From NCBI GenBank assembly GCA_946061795.1, contig CAMGSK010000001.1, positions 1-29,137 on the forward strand: a stretch of DNA of 29,137 nucleotides, given 5' to 3'. The notes beneath the pieces are model-generated. The model searched no databases, had not been told where the DNA came from, and saw only the letters and a program-made list of their open reading frames with translations. The position numbers and the translations under genes are program-made. The stretch's first letter is position 1. The number at the start of each line of letters is the position of its first letter. Positions 4,694 to 28,359 of the stretch are shown here, piece after piece. The stretch is from an uncultured Elusimicrobium sp. Lineage in GTDB: Bacteria > Elusimicrobiota > Elusimicrobia > Elusimicrobiales > Elusimicrobiaceae.

Positions 4694-4728
4694 TTGACGC
4701 ATTTTTTTTTTTTTGATAAATTTTACAT
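4694..4728 (+). promoter_or_regulatory. Prepilin promoter with T13 spacer, apparently leaderless
   Basis: A -35-like TTGACG (4694-4699) is followed by CA, thirteen T, GA and then TAAATT (4717-4722) as a -10-like box, giving a 17-bp spacer (GATAAA at 15 bp is an alternative). Counting 6-7 bases from this -10 puts the transcript start at or next to the ATG at 4729. No Shine-Dalgarno sequence exists in the T/A-only stretch before the ATG, which fits a leaderless mRNA. The same cassette with T12 occurs before the second prepilin. No transcript data are available to confirm the start. Confidence 0.6.
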
Positions 4729-4749
4729 ATGAATAAAATTTATCAAAAA
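4710..4749. repeat. 16-bp perfect palindrome centred on the prepilin start codon
   Basis: TTTTTGATAAATTTTA (4710-4725) and its exact reverse complement (4734-4749) flank the 8-nt loop CATATGAA, which contains the start codon. The identical structure surrounds the second prepilin start at 12923. It may act as an operator in DNA, or as an RNA hairpin if transcription starts upstream. Confidence 0.85.
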
Positions 4750-5253
4750 TTTCTCTCCGGCGGAAAAAACGCCGGATTTACGCTGATAGAACTGCTGGTG
4801 GTGGTGTTAATCATCGGTATTTTGTCTGCGATTGCATTGCCGCAATATACGGCGACGGTGGAAAAGGCTCGTGCAGTGGAAGCCGTGGCAAATATCAAAG
4901 TGATGACGGATGCTGCTTCTTTATTTATCTTGGAAAATCCCTCTTCGGAGCAAACTTGTTTTTCTGACTTCGGCGTGACGGAGCTTTCCGGAGGCGCATG
5001 GACGGACGGTTGGTATCAAACGAAATATTTTGAATATCAAGGTTTGTGTATTACCAACGGAAGGGGAAGCATGGATGTTAACCGCAGGGATGGAAATTAT
5101 TCGTTTTGGGTCACGAATGAGGGAGGAGGAGTTTGTGAAGGCACTGCGGGCACGTGGTGCAAGTCCTGCTTTACTCAATTAACGGATATAGGACGAAAAA
5201 TTTGCCGGGGACTGGAAAGCCAGGGCTTTATTTATGTAGATGGCGAACTTTAG
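4729..5253 (+). CDS. Type IV prepilin-like protein 1
   Basis: Secreted pilin or pseudopilin subunit. The 16-residue leader ends in KNAG; cleavage is expected before FTLIEL, leaving Phe1 and Glu5 of the mature helix, followed by the hydrophobic helix LLVVVLIIGILSAIALPQY. The variable globular part has about seven Cys (TCFSDF, CITN, GVCEG, WCKSC, ICRG) that could form disulfides. It stands alone between two terminators, away from any pilus assembly genes. The first 45 residues and the promoter cassette match the second prepilin while the rest differs. This suggests paralogues that share an expression and secretion cassette but display different surfaces. Minor pilin versus major subunit cannot be decided. 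Confidence 0.9.
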   Translation: MNKIYQKFLSGGKNAGFTLIELLVVVLIIGILSAIALPQYTATVEKARAVEAVANIKVMTDAASLFILENPSSEQTCFSDFGVTELSGGAWTDGWYQTKYFEYQGLCITNGRGSMDVNRRDGNYSFWVTNEGGGVCEGTAGTWCKSCFTQLTDIGRKICRGLESQGFIYVDGEL

Positions 5254-7009: not shown

Positions 7010-7687
7010 TCACACTCCGCATATGCGCCGGACGATGCGGCCCAGCGGGCACGCTTGCCCCTGCGGCAAGGGTGCGTCTTTGGCGTTTAAGCCCTGCAAA
7101 ATGCGTATTTCGCCCTTTTTGGTGTAGTGCCCGGCAAGATATCCCTCATTCGTTTTCCACAACATAACGTGTTGCTCCGACGGGACGTCCGTCGGTTGCA
7201 CAAAGCACAAATCGTCCCCGTCTTTTGCGTCAGCCAAACCCGCGTTAGAACTGCGGATAATATATTTTGCGCCTAAAGCGTATCTTCTGGGAACGCTCCA
7301 CCATTCGATGATTTCGCTTTCGTCATATTGCGGGAAAGCGTCCGGCACCGAATTTAGGAACGGAAGCCTGACCGTATTGCTTTGACATTCTTCTTCCGTC
7401 CCGGCGGAATAGACGTCCTCCTCCGTCTTTTCTCTTAACAGCTGCATGCGCGGGGAGGGTTCGGGATAAGTTGTTGTGCGGGAGTCAAACAGTTTTAATG
7501 CATCAAATAAATCTATGGAAAACAGTTCCGCCATTTTGTTGATATATCCTTTGGAGGGATGGCGTTTGCCCGTGGCCCATTGTGCGGTGGTGGCGGTGGA
7601 AACGCCCAATGTTTTTGCTAACTTGGCCTGTGCTCCTCTCAACACGCCGTTATTCCATTTTTCCAATTGTTTTTCAAATTTATTCAT
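7010..7687 (-). CDS. XRE-family regulator with S24/LexA-like C-terminal domain
   Basis: Probable transcriptional repressor. Residues about 15-50 form a Cro/CI-type helix-turn-helix (AKLAKTLGVSTATTAQWATG); residues 130-225 resemble the S24 peptidase-like domain of CI/LexA repressors (KYIIRSS, DGDDLCFVQP, GRIVRRI). The usual GDSM motif is not present (SSNAG stands there) and no Lys sits at the expected VKR position, so self-cleavage is doubtful and the domain may only dimerise. GGGAA lies about 5 nt before the start. A strong divergent promoter (7732-7761) starts 45 bases away, which is the classic position for its target. Neighbouring DNA is gene-poor, as in a prophage remnant, but no phage genes are present. 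Confidence 0.78.
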   Translation of the reverse strand: MNKFEKQLEKWNNGVLRGAQAKLAKTLGVSTATTAQWATGKRHPSKGYINKMAELFSIDLFDALKLFDSRTTTYPEPSPRMQLLREKTEEDVYSAGTEEECQSNTVRLPFLNSVPDAFPQYDESEIIEWWSVPRRYALGAKYIIRSSNAGLADAKDGDDLCFVQPTDVPSEQHVMLWKTNEGYLAGHYTKKGEIRILQGLNAKDAPLPQGQACPLGRIVRRICGV

Positions 7688-12888: not shown

Positions 12889-12922
12889 TTGACGCATTTT
12901 TTTTTTTTGATAAATTTTACAT
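12889..12922 (+). promoter_or_regulatory. Second copy of the prepilin promoter, T12 spacer
   Basis: TTGACG (12889-12894), CA, twelve T, GA, TAAATT (12911-12916): a 16-bp spacer, one base shorter than the first copy. No SD is present. From TTGACG into codon 8 the sequence is the same as at 4694 except for the T-tract length. Confidence 0.6.
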
Positions 12923-12943
12923 ATGAATAAAATTTATCAAAAA
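12904..12943. repeat. Second copy of the start-codon palindrome
   Basis: Same 16-bp inverted repeat (TTTTTGATAAATTTTA and complement) around CATATGAA as at 4710-4749. Confidence 0.85.
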
Positions 12944-13495
12944 TCTTTCTCCGTCCATAAAAACGCCGGATTTACGCTGATAGAGCTGTTAGTGGTTGTT
13001 TTAATCATCGGCATTTTGTCGGCCGTCGCTTTGCCGCAATATCAAAAAGCGGTGGTAAAAAGCCGTGCCGCCGCCTTGCTCCCGTGGGCGAAAAAGGTAT
13101 ATGACGCACAGCAGATGTATTTTATGCAGAACGGGAAATTCGCCGCCAACTTTGAGGAATTGGGCGAAGATTTTTCGGATTCTTTCCCTGTGAAGCCATC
13201 TGATTTTTCTCAGGCACCTTGGCAGCTGGCCACCTCCAATCACAATATGGGCAAATATCCGTACGGAGTGCGTATTATGACGCATGGGGCCCTAAGCGGC
13301 GCGGTGTTTAATCAGGCGATGATTTCCGGCTACGGCGGCTTGGTGTATAAACATTCCGCTCCTTATCAAGGAGAACTTTTGTGTTGGGAATATGCCTGTC
13401 ATGTCGTGCAAGACGGCAGTTTTTGCCAAAAAATTATGGGATACTCAAATAAAGTGACTACGGGCAGCTGCTACCGGTTGTATCGCAAAGATTAA
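12923..13495 (+). CDS. Type IV prepilin-like protein 2
   Basis: Secreted pilin or pseudopilin of 190 residues. The leader is MNKIYQKSFSVHKNAG; cleavage is expected before FTLIEL, with Glu5 and the helix LLVVVLIIGILSAVALPQYQ. After residue 45 it is unrelated to prepilin 1 at a glance, with its own Cys set (LLCWEYACHV, SFCQKI, GSCYRL), a MYFMQNGKF stretch after the helix and a basic end. It is a single-gene unit behind the lon terminator, with the duplicated promoter and palindrome cassette, and was probably copied as a cassette. No assembly ATPase or peptidase gene is in the window. Confidence 0.9.
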   Translation: MNKIYQKSFSVHKNAGFTLIELLVVVLIIGILSAVALPQYQKAVVKSRAAALLPWAKKVYDAQQMYFMQNGKFAANFEELGEDFSDSFPVKPSDFSQAPWQLATSNHNMGKYPYGVRIMTHGALSGAVFNQAMISGYGGLVYKHSAPYQGELLCWEYACHVVQDGSFCQKIMGYSNKVTTGSCYRLYRKD

Positions 13496-22770: not shown

Positions 22771-25512
22771 ATGCGCCGCCTCACGTTTTTATTTGTTTTG
22801 GCGTGCTTTTGCTTTTGTTGTCCTGTTCGGGCGCAAGCGCAGGAGGCGGACAGCTTTTTTGTAGCTTCGGCGGAGGTAGATGGAAAAACCGTTTCGGAGG
22901 GTGTGTTGTTTCTGTACCAAAACGAAACATTGTTCGCGCCGTTTTCTTTGTTAACCGATGAACTGAATCTCCCTTTCGTGTGGAACGGCGGGCGGCTGTA
23001 CGGAGAGACTTCATCGGGGGAACGCGTTGAGGTTCTTCCTGAAGCCTCCAAGGCGCGGAAGGGGGAGGACGAAGCGAATGTAAGCGGGCGGGATTTTGCC
23101 AAGGCGGACGGGGAGTGGTATCTCAGCGCGCATGCTTTGGAAGAGCTGTTGGGGGTGGAAATGAAACCGGATTTTACGCGTCAGTCCGTTCGTGTGAGCA
23201 GCCGGACGCGTTCGCTGCCCGATGAGCTGGCGGCGGACGCTTCGGTCCGCCGTGCCGCATTGCTGTTCTCTGAGCCGGATGATGAAGTCGTTGCTTTGAC
23301 GGAAGAGACGGATTCTTGGCGTGCGCCTTTTGTGGATGTTTCCGCCCGTTATAATTTTGACAAAGAACCTTCCGGCTCTTCCTCTTCTTTTTTGGGATAC
23401 AGCGTGCACGCTTTTGGTCCCACGGGCCCGACGGACAGCGAGGTATATGTCTATGATATGGACGGGCGTTCTCCTGCGTCGGTGTCCGTTAAGACCTCCC
23501 GTTATGAACCGGACGGAAAAATGTTGGGTCTGTTTAAAAAGATAGAAATAGGTGACGTGTATTCTTTTTCCAATTCCGCCGTTAATTACGCACAGAGCGG
23601 GCGCGGGGTAAAATTTTCTTCGTTTGCCGAAGATGCTCCCTCCGATAAAACCTTCAGCTTGCGCGAGCCGCTGCCACTGGGGTGGGAAGCGGAACTCTAC
23701 CGCAACGGAGAGCTGATGGGATACCGACGGGCGGGAGAGGACGGATTTTTGGAATTTCGCGACGTTCCTTTTTTACTAGGGCGCAACGTGTTCCGTCTGG
23801 TTTATTACGGCCCGCAGGGGCAGGTGCGCAGTGAGGAACGGGTCTATTACTATACCGGTAATGTGGTGGATAAAGGAACATGGGACGTAAAATTTAATTT
23901 TTTGGAAAAAAATAAAAATGTAATAGAAACCCGCAAAGATATCCCTTCTTACTCCCAGGGCTACAACGGCTTGCTGGGCCTGACGTACGGCTTGGCAGAC
24001 TGGCTCAGCGCCGGGACGAACGTCATGTACGATTCCGTAGAGCGTGCCGCGCAAGGGGGATTTGAACGAAAAGACAAATGGTTTTTTTCCGCTTCGTTGG
24101 CGGCTTTGGCGGCGGGTACTTATTTGAACGCGGAAACCGTGTATGACCCGGAAGAAGGGGCATTTTCCGTGGAGGGCGGCGCACAAACGGACCTGTACGG
24201 GTGGGACGTGGCGGTCAATAACGTGTATTATGACGGAACGGTCACTCAGCGCAACGTGTATAATTTTACGACGCTGCGCAATGAATTTACCGCGCGCATA
24301 AACAAATCTCTGGCACTGCCCGGCGGCTGGAGTTTTCCGTTTTCTTATTCTTTTCGGCGTTTTTCCACATCCGAGAGCAAACATCAGACGGAGCATAACC
24401 TGTCCCTTTATCAGAATTCTTGGCGCGGAATGTATGCCGGGCTGTCATACCGCCGTTTGTACGGAGTGGACGGAAAGGCGGATTTGTTGTCTGCGGATAT
24501 AAACCGGATGGGGGCGGATTATTCTCTGAGAGCCGAAGCGGCGTATGATTTTTTATACGGACACCTTTACAGCGCGGGACTGAGCGTTTATAAAGATTTC
24601 CTTCCCCGGCTGACCGGCGGATTGAAGTACACCCGTTTTGTGCAAAGCGATTTAAATTCCGATTACGTCAACCGTCTTTCGGCCAGTTTAAGCTGGAAAA
24701 CCCGCTGGGGCTACTGGACGGCGGATTTCGGCGTGGGGGACGACCACAGCTGCTACGGCTACATAGGGCTGAATTTATCTTTGCTGCTGGACGGAAAGCG
24801 CGTTTGGGCGGGGCCGGATAAATTGTACGGCACCGGCGCGGTGAAAACCGACGTTTTTTTGGATGAAAACGCCAACGGACGCAGAGATCCCGGCGAAAAA
24901 AGCGTTCCCGGAGCCTCTGCCGTCCTTTCTCCGCGTCCTTCGGGAGATTTTTCTTTGCGCGAAGGCCGGGAAGGGGACACTTTATTCAGCGGTCTGAAGG
25001 CCTATGAATCCTATATGTTGGATATTGATTTGAACGCCGCGTCCGAAAGCGCATCTTATGTTTCCGCGGCGCCCCGGCGCCGTGTGCGCGTGCGTCCCGG
25101 GCAGGTGCTGACTTTGCCTTGTCCCGTTATCGGGACAGGAGACGTGCAGGGACGGGTATTCTCTTGGGTTCCCGGCGCAGAAGCTTTGGAGCGGAGCGGA
25201 ATTATTTTGAAATTGACGGACGCAAAAACGGGACGCGTTGCGGCGCGGCGGGTGAGCGAGTTTGACGGTAATTATTTGTTTGAGAGACTGCCGGCGGGGG
25301 ACTATGTACTGGAAACGGACGCCGCCCAATTGGAAGAATTGGGGTTTGCCGCATCCGCTCCGGTTGCTTTTTCCGTGAAGAAAAACGAAGAGCTGCTGAC
25401 ATTTGATTTTGTTCTGGAACGGCGTGATGCGCCGTCCCGGGAAGAAATACAGACAGACCATCGCTTCCCAAGCTTACGGCAAGAAGCGGAGAAAAATAAG
25501 GAGGGGGTATGA
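22771..25512 (+). CDS. Outer-membrane usher-like protein with SdrB/Cna-B-like C-terminal domains
   Basis: 913 residues. Signal peptide (MRRLTFLFVLACFCFCCPVR, then AQAQ). The N-terminal domain (25-175) precedes a long beta-barrel region (about 195-670) with the usher-type block IEIGDVYSFSNSAVNYAQSG, RGVKFSSF, REPLPLGWEAELYRNGELMG and FRDVPFLLGRNVFRLVYYGPQG, followed by repeated aromatic barrel strands. Residues 690-760 carry VFLDENANGRRDPGE, the calcium-type SdrD B-domain pattern; 785-890 is a second Cna-B-like Ig domain (GNYLFERLPAGDYVLETD). It forms the pore for pilus assembly. Its stop overlaps the next start (ATGA). It appears to belong to the alternate usher groups rather than the FimD/PapC type. 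Confidence 0.82.
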   Translation: MRRLTFLFVLACFCFCCPVRAQAQEADSFFVASAEVDGKTVSEGVLFLYQNETLFAPFSLLTDELNLPFVWNGGRLYGETSSGERVEVLPEASKARKGEDEANVSGRDFAKADGEWYLSAHALEELLGVEMKPDFTRQSVRVSSRTRSLPDELAADASVRRAALLFSEPDDEVVALTEETDSWRAPFVDVSARYNFDKEPSGSSSSFLGYSVHAFGPTGPTDSEVYVYDMDGRSPASVSVKTSRYEPDGKMLGLFKKIEIGDVYSFSNSAVNYAQSGRGVKFSSFAEDAPSDKTFSLREPLPLGWEAELYRNGELMGYRRAGEDGFLEFRDVPFLLGRNVFRLVYYGPQGQVRSEERVYYYTGNVVDKGTWDVKFNFLEKNKNVIETRKDIPSYSQGYNGLLGLTYGLADWLSAGTNVMYDSVERAAQGGFERKDKWFFSASLAALAAGTYLNAETVYDPEEGAFSVEGGAQTDLYGWDVAVNNVYYDGTVTQRNVYNFTTLRNEFTARINKSLALPGGWSFPFSYSFRRFSTSESKHQTEHNLSLYQNSWRGMYAGLSYRRLYGVDGKADLLSADINRMGADYSLRAEAAYDFLYGHLYSAGLSVYKDFLPRLTGGLKYTRFVQSDLNSDYVNRLSASLSWKTRWGYWTADFGVGDDHSCYGYIGLNLSLLLDGKRVWAGPDKLYGTGAVKTDVFLDENANGRRDPGEKSVPGASAVLSPRPSGDFSLREGREGDTLFSGLKAYESYMLDIDLNAASESASYVSAAPRRRVRVRPGQVLTLPCPVIGTGDVQGRVFSWVPGAEALERSGIILKLTDAKTGRVAARRVSEFDGNYLFERLPAGDYVLETDAAQLEELGFAASAPVAFSVKKNEELLTFDFVLERRDAPSREEIQTDHRFPSLRQEAEKNKEGV

Positions 25513-26024
25513 AACAAGTAAAATACATCGCGGCGGCCTTGCTGGCCGTGGCGGGATTAAGCGGCGCGTTGTTTGCTGCTACGGCGGGCCCGGCGACGGG
25601 CAGCGCCAAGGTCGTAATTATCGCTCCGATGACGCTTGCGCACGTCAACAATGCGGCATTAAATTTTGGCCGCGTCGTCAATACGTCGGCGGGCAGTGTG
25701 ACGGTGGCGGCCAAGGACGGCTCTTCCACCAATACGGGGGTGACGTATCAGGAAGGGCCTACCACGGCGGACCAGTTTACCGTGACAGGGCAAAACGGGG
25801 TGAGTTTTACCGTTAATTTGCCCGCCAGCATTACGGTGACCGACGGTTCCGGCAACAATATGACCGTCAATGCGCTGACCAGCTTCTGCGGTACGGGGGC
25901 GACGTCAACCTGCACGGCCAGTACGGCGGGCACGTCCGTGGGAGTGGGCGGTACGCTGAACGTGGCGGCCGCGCAAACGCCGGGTACGTATACGGGGACT
26001 TATTCCGTGACGATTACGTATTAA
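25509..26024 (+). CDS. DUF4402 fimbrial subunit-like protein (probable major subunit)
   Basis: 171 residues with a signal peptide (MKQVKYIAAALLAVAGLSGA, cut near LFAAT). The whole mature part is one DUF4402 domain: AALNFGRVVNTSAGSVTVAA, FTVNLPASITVTDGSGNNMT, one Cys pair (SFCGTG, TSTCTA), and GGTLNVAAAQTPGTYTGTYS with a terminal VTITY. The domain has the immunoglobulin-like pilin style used with chaperone and usher systems. It overlaps the usher by 4 nt but has its own SD AGGAGGGGG inside the usher end, fitting high expression. A hairpin follows, which would lower expression of the next gene. Confidence 0.82.
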   Translation: MKQVKYIAAALLAVAGLSGALFAATAGPATGSAKVVIIAPMTLAHVNNAALNFGRVVNTSAGSVTVAAKDGSSTNTGVTYQEGPTTADQFTVTGQNGVSFTVNLPASITVTDGSGNNMTVNALTSFCGTGATSTCTASTAGTSVGVGGTLNVAAAQTPGTYTGTYSVTITY

Positions 26025-26030
26025 AAAATA

Positions 26031-26055
26031 CGGGGCGCGTTTTGTGCGCGCCCCG
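26031..26055 (+). promoter_or_regulatory. Intra-operon hairpin between the two DUF4402 genes
   Basis: CGGGGCGCG / CGCGCCCCG, 9-bp stem with a 7-nt loop and a weak tail (CTTTAG). It ends nine bases before the next ATG and occupies the SD position. Partial termination or translation block is expected, making the downstream subunit minor. Confidence 0.7.
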
Positions 26056-26064
26056 CTTTAGCTT

Positions 26065-26997
26065 ATGCGAACGATTTTGCTTTGTTTGTTTTTGACTTTG
26101 GCCGCTCCGCTGCGCGCACTGACGGTGACCCAAGTGCCGGAAATTGATTTCGGGACGGTGCTGTTTTCTCTTTCCGGGGCGGGAACCAAAACCATATATG
26201 TGACGGGAAACGGCGCGGTTTCCCTGTCCGGTTCCGGCGGTATCGTCAGCCAGTCCGGCGGCGCGGCGGGGACGGCCGTTTTTACCAAAACGCTGATTAC
26301 GGAACTGGTGCTGGTGCTGCGCGTGACCAATACGTCCACTACATATTCAGCCAATACTTCCGGCTGTGGTCAGGCAACGCTGTCCGGACTGGAAATTAAC
26401 GGAGGCTTACTGAATGTGACACTGAATATTTTGGGGTCCACCGTACAGGCAAACGCCGGAGGCAAGCTGACTTTAAATTCCGTAGTCGGTTCCAACTGCG
26501 TCATTTCGGGTGTGGCTTCCGGCGCGCTGCGATATGGCACGGTGGTGGATTTGGACCCGGCCGGACCGGTGGATGTGAAGTTTAAGGTGCGTATCGGAGG
26601 AAGCGTCTTGACGCTGAATCATGATTCGCAAGCGGCCTTGAACTTCGGCACTTTGTGTCAAAACGTGTCTGCTTCCCAAACGCTGACGGTGGCGCCGGAC
26701 GGGACGGCGTCCTCGCAAAATTTAGTGTGCGGCCCCGGTGCGGTGACGGCGGATTCTTTTACGGTGAACGGTTTGAATCAAAGTTCGTTCAGTGTGACGC
26801 TGCCGGCCTCGGTCACGTTGCAAAACGGTGCGGGCAACACGCTCAGCGTCAGCGCGCTGACCAGTTCATGCGGCGCGTCCTGTACTATTACCTCTTCCAA
26901 CGAAAAAAAATTTACGGTCGGCGGTACGCTGACGGTTCCTCCGTCGGCCGCCGCGGGTTCTTATGCGGGAACGTATCCCGTCACGGTGGTGTATTAA
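26065..26997 (+). CDS. Two-domain DUF4402-like minor subunit or tip protein
   Basis: 310 residues; signal peptide MRTILLCLFLTLAAPLRA. Two domains of the same style: residues 20-180 (VPEIDFGTVLFSLSGAGTK, Cys in SGCGQA and SNCVIS) and 185-310 (AALNFGTLCQNVSASQTLTV, FSVTLPASVTLQNGAGNTLS, SSCGASCTI, GGTLTVPPSAAAGSYAGTYP). The second is close to the major subunit; the first is diverged. A two-domain subunit made in lower amount is the normal plan of a tip adhesin, so a pilus tip role is inferred. There is no SD; a hairpin covers that place, so it relies on read-through or coupling. Confidence 0.75.
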   Translation: MRTILLCLFLTLAAPLRALTVTQVPEIDFGTVLFSLSGAGTKTIYVTGNGAVSLSGSGGIVSQSGGAAGTAVFTKTLITELVLVLRVTNTSTTYSANTSGCGQATLSGLEINGGLLNVTLNILGSTVQANAGGKLTLNSVVGSNCVISGVASGALRYGTVVDLDPAGPVDVKFKVRIGGSVLTLNHDSQAALNFGTLCQNVSASQTLTVAPDGTASSQNLVCGPGAVTADSFTVNGLNQSSFSVTLPASVTLQNGAGNTLSVSALTSSCGASCTITSSNEKKFTVGGTLTVPPSAAAGSYAGTYPVTVVY

Positions 26998-27260: not shown

Positions 27261-27345
27261 CGGAGAGGGAGGGATTTGAACCCTCGAAGCCTTGCGGCTT
27301 ACAGGTTTTCGAGACCTGCTGTTTCAACCACTCACACACCTCTCC
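27261..27345 (-). tRNA. tRNA-Ser (anticodon CGA)
   Basis: Minus strand, 85 nt with all arms: acceptor GGAGAGG / CCTCTCC, a D-arm, anticodon stem CAGGT/ACCTG with loop CTCGAAA (anticodon CGA, reads UCG), a long variable arm (AAGCCGCAAGGCTT) typical of class II serine tRNA, and T-arm AGGGTTCAAATCCCT. The discriminator base is G. CCA is not encoded (TGG follows), so it must be added by the CCA enzyme. Confidence 0.96.
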
Positions 27346-27428: not shown

Positions 27429-28301
27429 TTATTGGCGCTGGCTGTTCCATTCTGAAGCCAATTTTTCACAGACAAAGAAACGGGACCTGTCTTCTTCCGT
27501 ATCACATTGAGGAATCCCTTTGTTGTAGGGAACTGTAAGACGGTATTTAAACGAATTGGTACGCCAAGCGGTAATCCCCCGGGGACCAAGAGCAAGGAGC
27601 CATGTTTTCTCTGTCCCGCAGCTTGCATATTTGTTTTGTGGATTGACGGTCTGCGGTCCCTTTATACAATAAAAATCCGTATATTCATTGGTTTGACGCG
27701 CCTTTTGGGGATTTCTCTGCGCAACGGCCGTTTGCTGCAAATGCTTCGTCAGTTGTATGGCGGCAACCACTTCAGACGCTTGTTGGTATTGGCGCAAAAA
27801 GGCGGGAAGCACAATAATTGCAGCCAGCAAGCATAAGCAAAGCACAATCGATTTCCAAGGAGTTTTTGCCGGAGCGTTTTGAGTTTGTTCTGGGACATAG
27901 TTTTTGTCCACCACCAAACATTTTGCAATTTTATCGTGCAGACATTGTTTCCGCTTCGTCCAGAAACACATTAAATAGCCTATAAAGAGCGTATATTTGG
28001 TCAAGAACGAGGAAATGTTGCGCATAAAAGAGCGCCAAAGAGAAATCCGGTTGCCGTTTAAATCCGTCACTTTAATGCCTACGATCCGTTTGCCGAGGGT
28101 TGCCTGCCAGCTGGATGCCTCTGACATGACGAAATATACCCACATGAACAGCAAGATAAACCATCCCAGCAACGACTTAATATGGTTGTTTATTGTGCCA
28201 TCAGCCGAAGAAAAAATTGCGATGACGAGATAAATGCTGCCATAGAATATCACGGTGTCAATAATATAAGCGACGGCTCTTTTCCAAAAACCTGCGTACA
28301 T
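27429..28301 (-). CDS. RDD-family membrane protein with pilin-like C-terminal region
   Basis: 290 residues. The N-terminal half (1-130) is an RDD domain: FWKRAVAYIIDTVIFY (R and D of the name), two further helices, LGKRIVGIKVTDLNG and LRNI-like SFMRNISSF, WTKRKQCLHDKIAKCLVV. The second half begins at about residue 150 with a helix IVLCLCLLAAIIVLPAFLRQ, then QYQQASEVVAAIQLTKHLQ, which reads like the helix and start of a type IV pilin (compare ALPQYTATVEKARAVEAV in prepilin 1) but without the GFTLIE cleavage site. The globular end has paired Cys (FYCIKG, ASCGTE, PQCDTE, FVCEKL). SD AGGAGG 7 nt before the start. The fusion is inferred from pattern. Confidence 0.82.
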   Translation of the reverse strand: MYAGFWKRAVAYIIDTVIFYGSIYLVIAIFSSADGTINNHIKSLLGWFILLFMWVYFVMSEASSWQATLGKRIVGIKVTDLNGNRISLWRSFMRNISSFLTKYTLFIGYLMCFWTKRKQCLHDKIAKCLVVDKNYVPEQTQNAPAKTPWKSIVLCLCLLAAIIVLPAFLRQYQQASEVVAAIQLTKHLQQTAVAQRNPQKARQTNEYTDFYCIKGPQTVNPQNKYASCGTEKTWLLALGPRGITAWRTNSFKYRLTVPYNKGIPQCDTEEDRSRFFVCEKLASEWNSQRQ

Positions 28302-28320: not shown

Positions 28321-28359
28321 TAAGATAAACTATCTTACCGTTTTTTTTTTTTGAGTCAA
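28321..28359 (-). promoter_or_regulatory. RDD gene promoter with A12 spacer and palindrome
   Basis: Minus strand: TTGACT (28359-28354), C, twelve A, CGG, TAAGAT (28337-28332); 16-bp spacer. The -10 is the left arm of the palindrome TAAGATA-AAC-TATCTTA (28321-28337), a possible operator. It is the third promoter in this window with a 12-13 base homopolymer spacer. Confidence 0.7.

Follow-up and report, generated by a model that had tools for sequence, protein, structure and literature searches.

In M. hyorhinis, every gene of the vlp surface family has a homopolymer tract in its promoter, and the length of this tract switches the genes (Citti and Wise 1995, as presented in PMC10502178). A different kind of compact control region is found in the nreAXY operon of Mesorhizobium, for which a leaderless mRNA has been mapped to the ATG and a dyad operator lies in a very compact promoter (PMC12724321). 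The acuR-acuI-dddL operon of Rhodobacter sphaeroides also has a leaderless start, with an inverted-repeat operator overlapping the promoter (PMC3017554). Pilin genes are known in Elusimicrobiota, for example in Endomicrobium, and the passages of the source that deal with these genes describe no shared promoter, T tract or palindrome (PMC8809381).

The window analysed here, i.e. the whole stretch of 29,137 nucleotides, comes from an uncultured Elusimicrobium sp. and contains two prepilin genes that begin with nearly the same block of DNA (Table 1). Many pilin-like genes are present in Elusimicrobium minutum. Direct sequence comparison and a promoter scan confirmed the cassette pair as it had been described in a first-pass annotation. 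The two blocks are the same through the first base of codon 8, T count excepted; both read TTGACG, CA, T tract, GA and TAAATT, with TTACAT leading on to the ATG in copy 1, and the spacers between the −35 and −10 hexamers measure 17 (copy 1) and 16 (copy 2). Both promoters have 9 of 12 consensus bases and a TG ahead of the second hexamer, which ends 6 nt before the ATG, and each region has one further, overlapping weaker site (TTTACA/AAAAAT, also 9/12). Two occurrences of TTGACNNNTTTTTT were counted in the window where 0.06 would be expected, a number reached in 0 of 100 shuffles; the second half alone, TAAATTTTACATATG, is not rare, with 2 occurrences in the window at up to 3 mismatches and 19 of 100 shuffles reaching 2. 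Both ORFs are prepilins, with Pfam N_methyl (PF07963) scores of 33.0 and 34.3 bits (cut-off 21.2) and TIGR02532 scores of 32.5 and 31.3 (cut-off 16.3) for prepilins 1 and 2, and with a short basic leader before the N-terminal cleavage/methylation motif. The window also encodes, at 22771–26997, a large ORF that is usher-like by eye (its SdrD_B match is sub-threshold), followed by two DUF4402 proteins (94.1 and 96.8 bits), which together are perhaps a second fibre system. On the minus strand at 7010–7687 lies an XRE-type HTH protein, whose HTH_3 score of 22.6 bits is just below the cut-off of 23 and whose C-terminal part is S24-like by eye.

Table 1. Features of the two prepilin cassettes in the window.
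Feature	Position	Strand	Basis
−35 hexamer TTGACG, copy 1	4694..4699	+	sequence and promoter scan
T13 tract in promoter spacer, copy 1	4702..4714	+	sequence and genome T-tract survey
−10 hexamer TAAATT with TG extension, copy 1	4717..4722	+	promoter scan
Palindrome left arm, copy 1	4710..4725	+	inverted-repeat search
Palindrome right arm, copy 1 (last base of codon 2 to codon 7)	4734..4749	+	inverted-repeat search and leader-codon comparison
Prepilin 1, 174 aa, predicted leaderless start	4729..5253	+	ORF, Pfam, start-class survey
−35 hexamer TTGACG, copy 2	12889..12894	+	sequence and promoter scan
T12 tract in promoter spacer, copy 2	12897..12908	+	sequence and genome T-tract survey
−10 hexamer TAAATT with TG extension, copy 2	12911..12916	+	promoter scan
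Palindrome left arm, copy 2	12904..12919	+	inverted-repeat search
Palindrome right arm, copy 2	12928..12943	+	inverted-repeat search
Prepilin 2, 190 aa, predicted leaderless start	12923..13495	+	ORF, Pfam, start-class survey

The first-pass annotation missed an inverted repeat that is present in both copies, with 16-nt arms separated by 8 nt and 100% complementary. In copy 1 its centre lies between 4729 and 4730, the first two bases of the ATG, and its right arm is written in the leader codons for (N)KIYQK. We take this start-codon palindrome to be a more informative feature than the T tract. The genome of origin is a metagenome-assembled genome (MAG) of 1,299,434 bases in 159 contigs and 85.6% complete (G000), and when searched in the sense orientation with GATAAATTTT-NNNN(A)TGAAN-AAAATTTATC it yielded 35 exact blocks, or 37 at one mismatch or fewer, including both window copies; contigs that break inside the block may have led to double counting of up to about four of these. 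Such breaks leave an upstream half in C60, C96, C116 and C125 and a downstream half in C54, C74, C107 and C117. The originally suggested pattern, TTGACG-CA-T with the tract and gap kept loose, returned only the two places in the window, because both carry a rare variant of the centre: among the 35 exact blocks, they alone have A..T and not G..C adjoining the arms. The cassette does recur in the genome along with its leader peptide, so that a lack of further copies, named in the first-pass annotation as an objection, does not apply. The description of it as copied is right only in part: neither the −35 hexamer nor the centre is the same in most copies, and the upstream flanks are unrelated by eye.

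Prepilins are numerous in this genome. A motif search of the DNA retrieved returned 71 prepilin-type ORFs, and a protein search with prepilin 2 gave 80 matches at E ≤ 1. The cassette genes have the 5′ block in common in dozens of cases and diverge in their C-terminal parts. An early idea that the cassette also precedes non-pilin genes has mostly dissolved, with 124 of 139 distinct cassettes having a prepilin motif within 60 residues; 6 of the other 15 are cut by contig ends, and the 9 that lack a motif within this distance comprise 2 prepilins with longer leaders (L130, L169) and 7 short broken ORFs. In L130 and L169, in-frame REP-like repeats that lie between the start and GFTLIE make the leader longer, and the same lengthening is seen in L336, L340, L349, L352 and others from genomes G024, G027 and G039. 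A search of viral contigs for an exact cassette match found none.

Among the 71 prepilin ORFs, 32 have their ATG 14 nt downstream of the first base of GATA. No SD-like motif is present in the last 20 nt before any of these 32 starts, the first 10 of these nucleotides being fixed by the definition of the class and the free test covering about 10 nt. An SD is present in 35 of the 39 other prepilin ORFs, a group that includes a cut leaderless copy (C59:8786) and a gene in which the distance from the −10 to the ATG is two bases longer (C87); two starts classed as "SD, TTG" (C34, C135) are probably internal. Paralogues carry TACACT, TACCCT, TACATT or TAAATT at the −10 place after the T tract, and the assignment of the −10 is supported by the first three of these groups, since they have the hexamer there and then a 5′ leader with an SD. 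The lack of an SD and a promoter from which +1 is predicted to fall at the ATG agree with the earlier proposal of leaderless expression, and the window prepilins and the 32-member class likely start in this way. A palindrome is not needed for such initiation, because one leaderless gene has none: at C93 (L238, G000:C93:4563), a leaderless T11 promoter without palindrome precedes a DUF1796 gene for a putative papain-like peptidase (40.2 bits, cut-off 23).

Runs of ten or more Ts number 55 in the genome, both strands included, and the next base is G in all 55. The run is followed by GATA in 53 cases, by GGTA in one and by unrelated sequence in one (C1:28352), and a TTG lies within 10 nt ahead of 51 of the 54 GATA/GGTA tracts, with two lacking it and one cut by a contig end. 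A prepilin motif is found within 260 nt of 45 runs, 29 with an ATG at the leaderless position and 16 with a 5′ leader. The remaining ten are contig-end cuts (C60, C96, C125, C101), C116 with 118 nt visible, a short broken ORF (C6), C93, C24 and C71, which are overlapping contig ends and probably one locus for a secreted protein without Pfam match, and C1:28352. A T12 promoter with an SD is repeated before this secreted protein (L237, L235 and L239, at G000:C71, C24 and C101), and the contigs end within the repeat. C1:28352 corresponds to 28342–28353 of the window and is the sole run of the genome without GATA or GGTA after it; on the minus strand it reads TTGACT-C-A12-CGG-TAAGAT, with an A-tract spacer, upstream of an RDD-family ORF (27429–28301, minus).

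The position of the homopolymer between the promoter boxes was borne out by the promoter scan and the genome survey. The suggestion that slippage tunes expression was not supported, since the tract is exactly T12 in 46 of the 55 runs (T11 in 4, T13 in 4, T14 in 1) and in 68 of 105 palindromic cassettes from relatives (T11 in 11, T13 in 8, and 18 others between T7 and T17); for the relatives only T lengths were used, spacer values being unreliable where a TTG was at times picked inside TTGATTTG. This uniformity argues against slippage as the main role of the tract, and a fixed spacer would fit better than a free ON/OFF switch. The T7–T17 tail in the relatives nevertheless shows, by comparison of their cassettes, that tract lengths do change, and these outliers may be slipped or inactive copies.

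As regards the palindrome itself, leader codons 3–7 show no synonymous change in 164 codons and one non-synonymous change among 33 genes of the genome, which were chosen by a leader amino-acid criterion. In 12 other ORFs of the window, by contrast, CAA makes up 45% of the Gln codons and TAT 54% of the Tyr codons. Codons 2 and 5 of GFTLIE are as invariant as the leader (33/33 each), with later codons varying up to 0.73, so shared descent or gene conversion explains part of the uniformity of the block. Relatives do show synonymous changes, as well as changes in one arm that are left unpaired. The palindrome is found at a fixed place in the promoter and is kept as a palindrome; the arms being set by the search pattern, covariation could be assessed at the centre bases only. 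Exact matches in ten relatives number 205, and 150 of them, from nine genomes, were analysed (0 from G063, 18 of 25 from G062). Position p2 (base −3) is Watson-Crick complementary to the middle base of codon 2 in 105 of 150 copies, compared to 71.8 in within-genome shuffles (z 7.0, 0/3000). As the copies are related, the rows were also collapsed to one per genome and combination, which reduces this effect and gave 47 of 78 against 33.4 (1/3000). The neighbouring dyad pair, p3, yields 46 against 37.0 (z 3.4, 1/3000), weakening to 92/3000 on collapse. These two z-scores are the highest of nine position pairs tested, and both belong to true dyad pairs; the combination of p2 with the first base of codon 2, which is no dyad pair, is also raised (z 2.8), and p1 has no clear covariation outside the genome of origin (607/3000; 1031/5000 in a separate test). 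Adding the genome of origin gives 108 of 185 against 74.9 for p2 (0/5000); most of its own centres are unpaired at p2, and its codon 2 is Asn in 35/35, while in relatives this codon varies between Asn, Ser, Asp, Thr, Gly, Arg and His. Since the amino acid of codon 2 changes along with a noncoding base, selection on DNA or RNA symmetry would be the simplest reading of the covariation.

The palindrome is matched at two mismatches or fewer in 25 of 90 genomes of the family, all in one of six genera. It is dispensable within this genus, because G024, G027, G038 and G039 have no match at this threshold yet many prepilins. Where the palindrome has no match, also in other species of the genus, many prepilins have TTG–T tract promoters with an SD (30 loci in each survey, not all with a T tract), so that the T-tract promoter seems to be the older form and the palindromic leaderless one a derived form. 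The number of palindromic copies varies from none (G027, G038, G039) to dozens (G014, G046) in relatives whose RadA is about 91% identical. A prepilin lies behind radA in 6 of 30 loci and behind lon in another 6 of 30, with some of the loci truncated, and both sites are occupied in some species only; no orthologous pair for a comparison of tract lengths emerged from them. The 1.5 Mb genome G004 has 150 scored prepilin matches (238 candidates).

The reading that we favour, if only slightly, is that a promoter with a rigid spacer and a predicted dyad operator at +1 serves a dispersed pilin regulon. The cassette would then be a compact promoter–operator–start module, with a −35 of the TTGAC- or TTGCAT-type, a near-fixed T12 spacer, an extended −10 of the form TGATAAATT, and a 40-bp DNA palindrome centred between the A and T of the ATG, which would be +1/+2 if the transcript is leaderless. 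RNA would start at the ATG, and a putative multimeric DNA-binding protein might occupy the palindrome and switch the pilin subset together, in the simplest mode as a repressor at +1. The right half-site would lie in the (N)KIYQK codons, so that the prepilin leader would double as operator DNA, and the T tract would be a spacer of set length and not a slip switch. An operator is the simplest reading because the palindrome sits at +1 of many promoters, and the model fits two further loci, C5:13714 and C29:8129, since these keep a near-palindrome without central ATG and start downstream with an SD. To the wider proposal we give about even weight: that a predicted operator, half promoter and half signal peptide, forms a 40-bp palindrome centred on the ATG in dozens of leaderless pilin genes, is under simultaneous constraint as a binding site, as the start of transcription and as the prepilin leader, and has been gained or lost between closely related gut species.

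Phase variation, as proposed at first, would have the gain or loss of Ts shift the −35/−10 spacing and so switch individual pilins. The long T tracts that separate the two hexamers, the T13 and T12 of the two window copies and the T7–T17 tail would suit it, as would the precedents of the promoter homopolymer in M. hyorhinis vlp and the promoter-spacer repeats in M. mycoides vmm (both as given in PMC10502178), but the predominance of exact T12 speaks against slippage, which also leaves the palindrome unexplained, and we regard it as unlikely. We think it just as improbable that pilin genes swap promoters or coding parts at the palindromic block, which would then be a site of recombination or gene conversion. 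A 5′ block common to dozens of genes with divergent C-terminal parts, the sharp differences in copy number between close relatives and the partial occupancy of the sites downstream of radA and lon could all be understood in this way. However, the dyad keeps a fixed place relative to the −10 and the ATG, and leaderless copies with visible upstream DNA have promoters of their own (2 lack the TTG and 1 is cut), which points away from a single expression site or an invertible promoter.

Were transcription to start further upstream, the palindrome could instead fold in the RNA with the AUG in the loop and control translation. The strand does fold well (−12.3 kcal/mol, z −4.72, 0/200 shuffles as good), but the conserved promoter puts +1 near the ATG, with only the right arm in the RNA and no upstream start predicted, and an Rfam search of the window matched nothing at the cassette and returned only a tRNA (27261–27345); such a hairpin is very unlikely. 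Least probable in our view is a young repeat family without function that spread by duplication, its palindrome inherited from one ancestral copy. Many copies are identical, and the first GFTLIE codons are also low in diversity, as expected for such a family, but the upstream flanks and downstream coding parts have diverged where the block has not, the covariation is specific to the dyad, and T runs are almost absent elsewhere in the genome.

If the operator reading is correct, a gut lineage that has been little studied would have dozens of stand-alone pilin genes in a single regulon, its members recognisable from sequence alone, and a defined 40-bp bait would make its regulator findable. The cassette would also give a clear example of a signal peptide under constraint from regulatory DNA, and the approximately 37 copies in one genome, with many more in relatives, would offer a natural set for the study of leaderless mRNAs for abundant structural proteins.

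Searches of open-licence papers returned no description of such a cassette, or of a homopolymer combined with a leaderless dyad operator on pilin start codons. As far as these sources go, homopolymer-controlled surface families and leaderless dyad-operator operons are each already known, and the combination in a pilin family was not found described. Like vlp, the family presented here is a multigene surface family with a homopolymer in each promoter region and a separate transcript for each gene; the tract of vlp switches, however, whereas that of the prepilins is near-constant, and the passages on vlp mention no start-codon palindrome. The vsa genes of M. pulmonis and the mpl genes of M. penetrans are similar in being large surface-gene families switched at the 5′ side, but according to the passages on them they use one expression locus or invertible promoters, in contrast to the separate promoter at each visible copy here (PMC10502178). 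The acuR-acuI-dddL operon differs, in the account available, in being a single operon that encodes its own repressor and in having 8-bp arms with 6 nt between them. As described, nreAXY is likewise one operon with its own repressor, and its operator lies in the −35/−10 spacer, whereas the palindrome of the prepilin genes is centred on the start codon, at a transcription start that is predicted.
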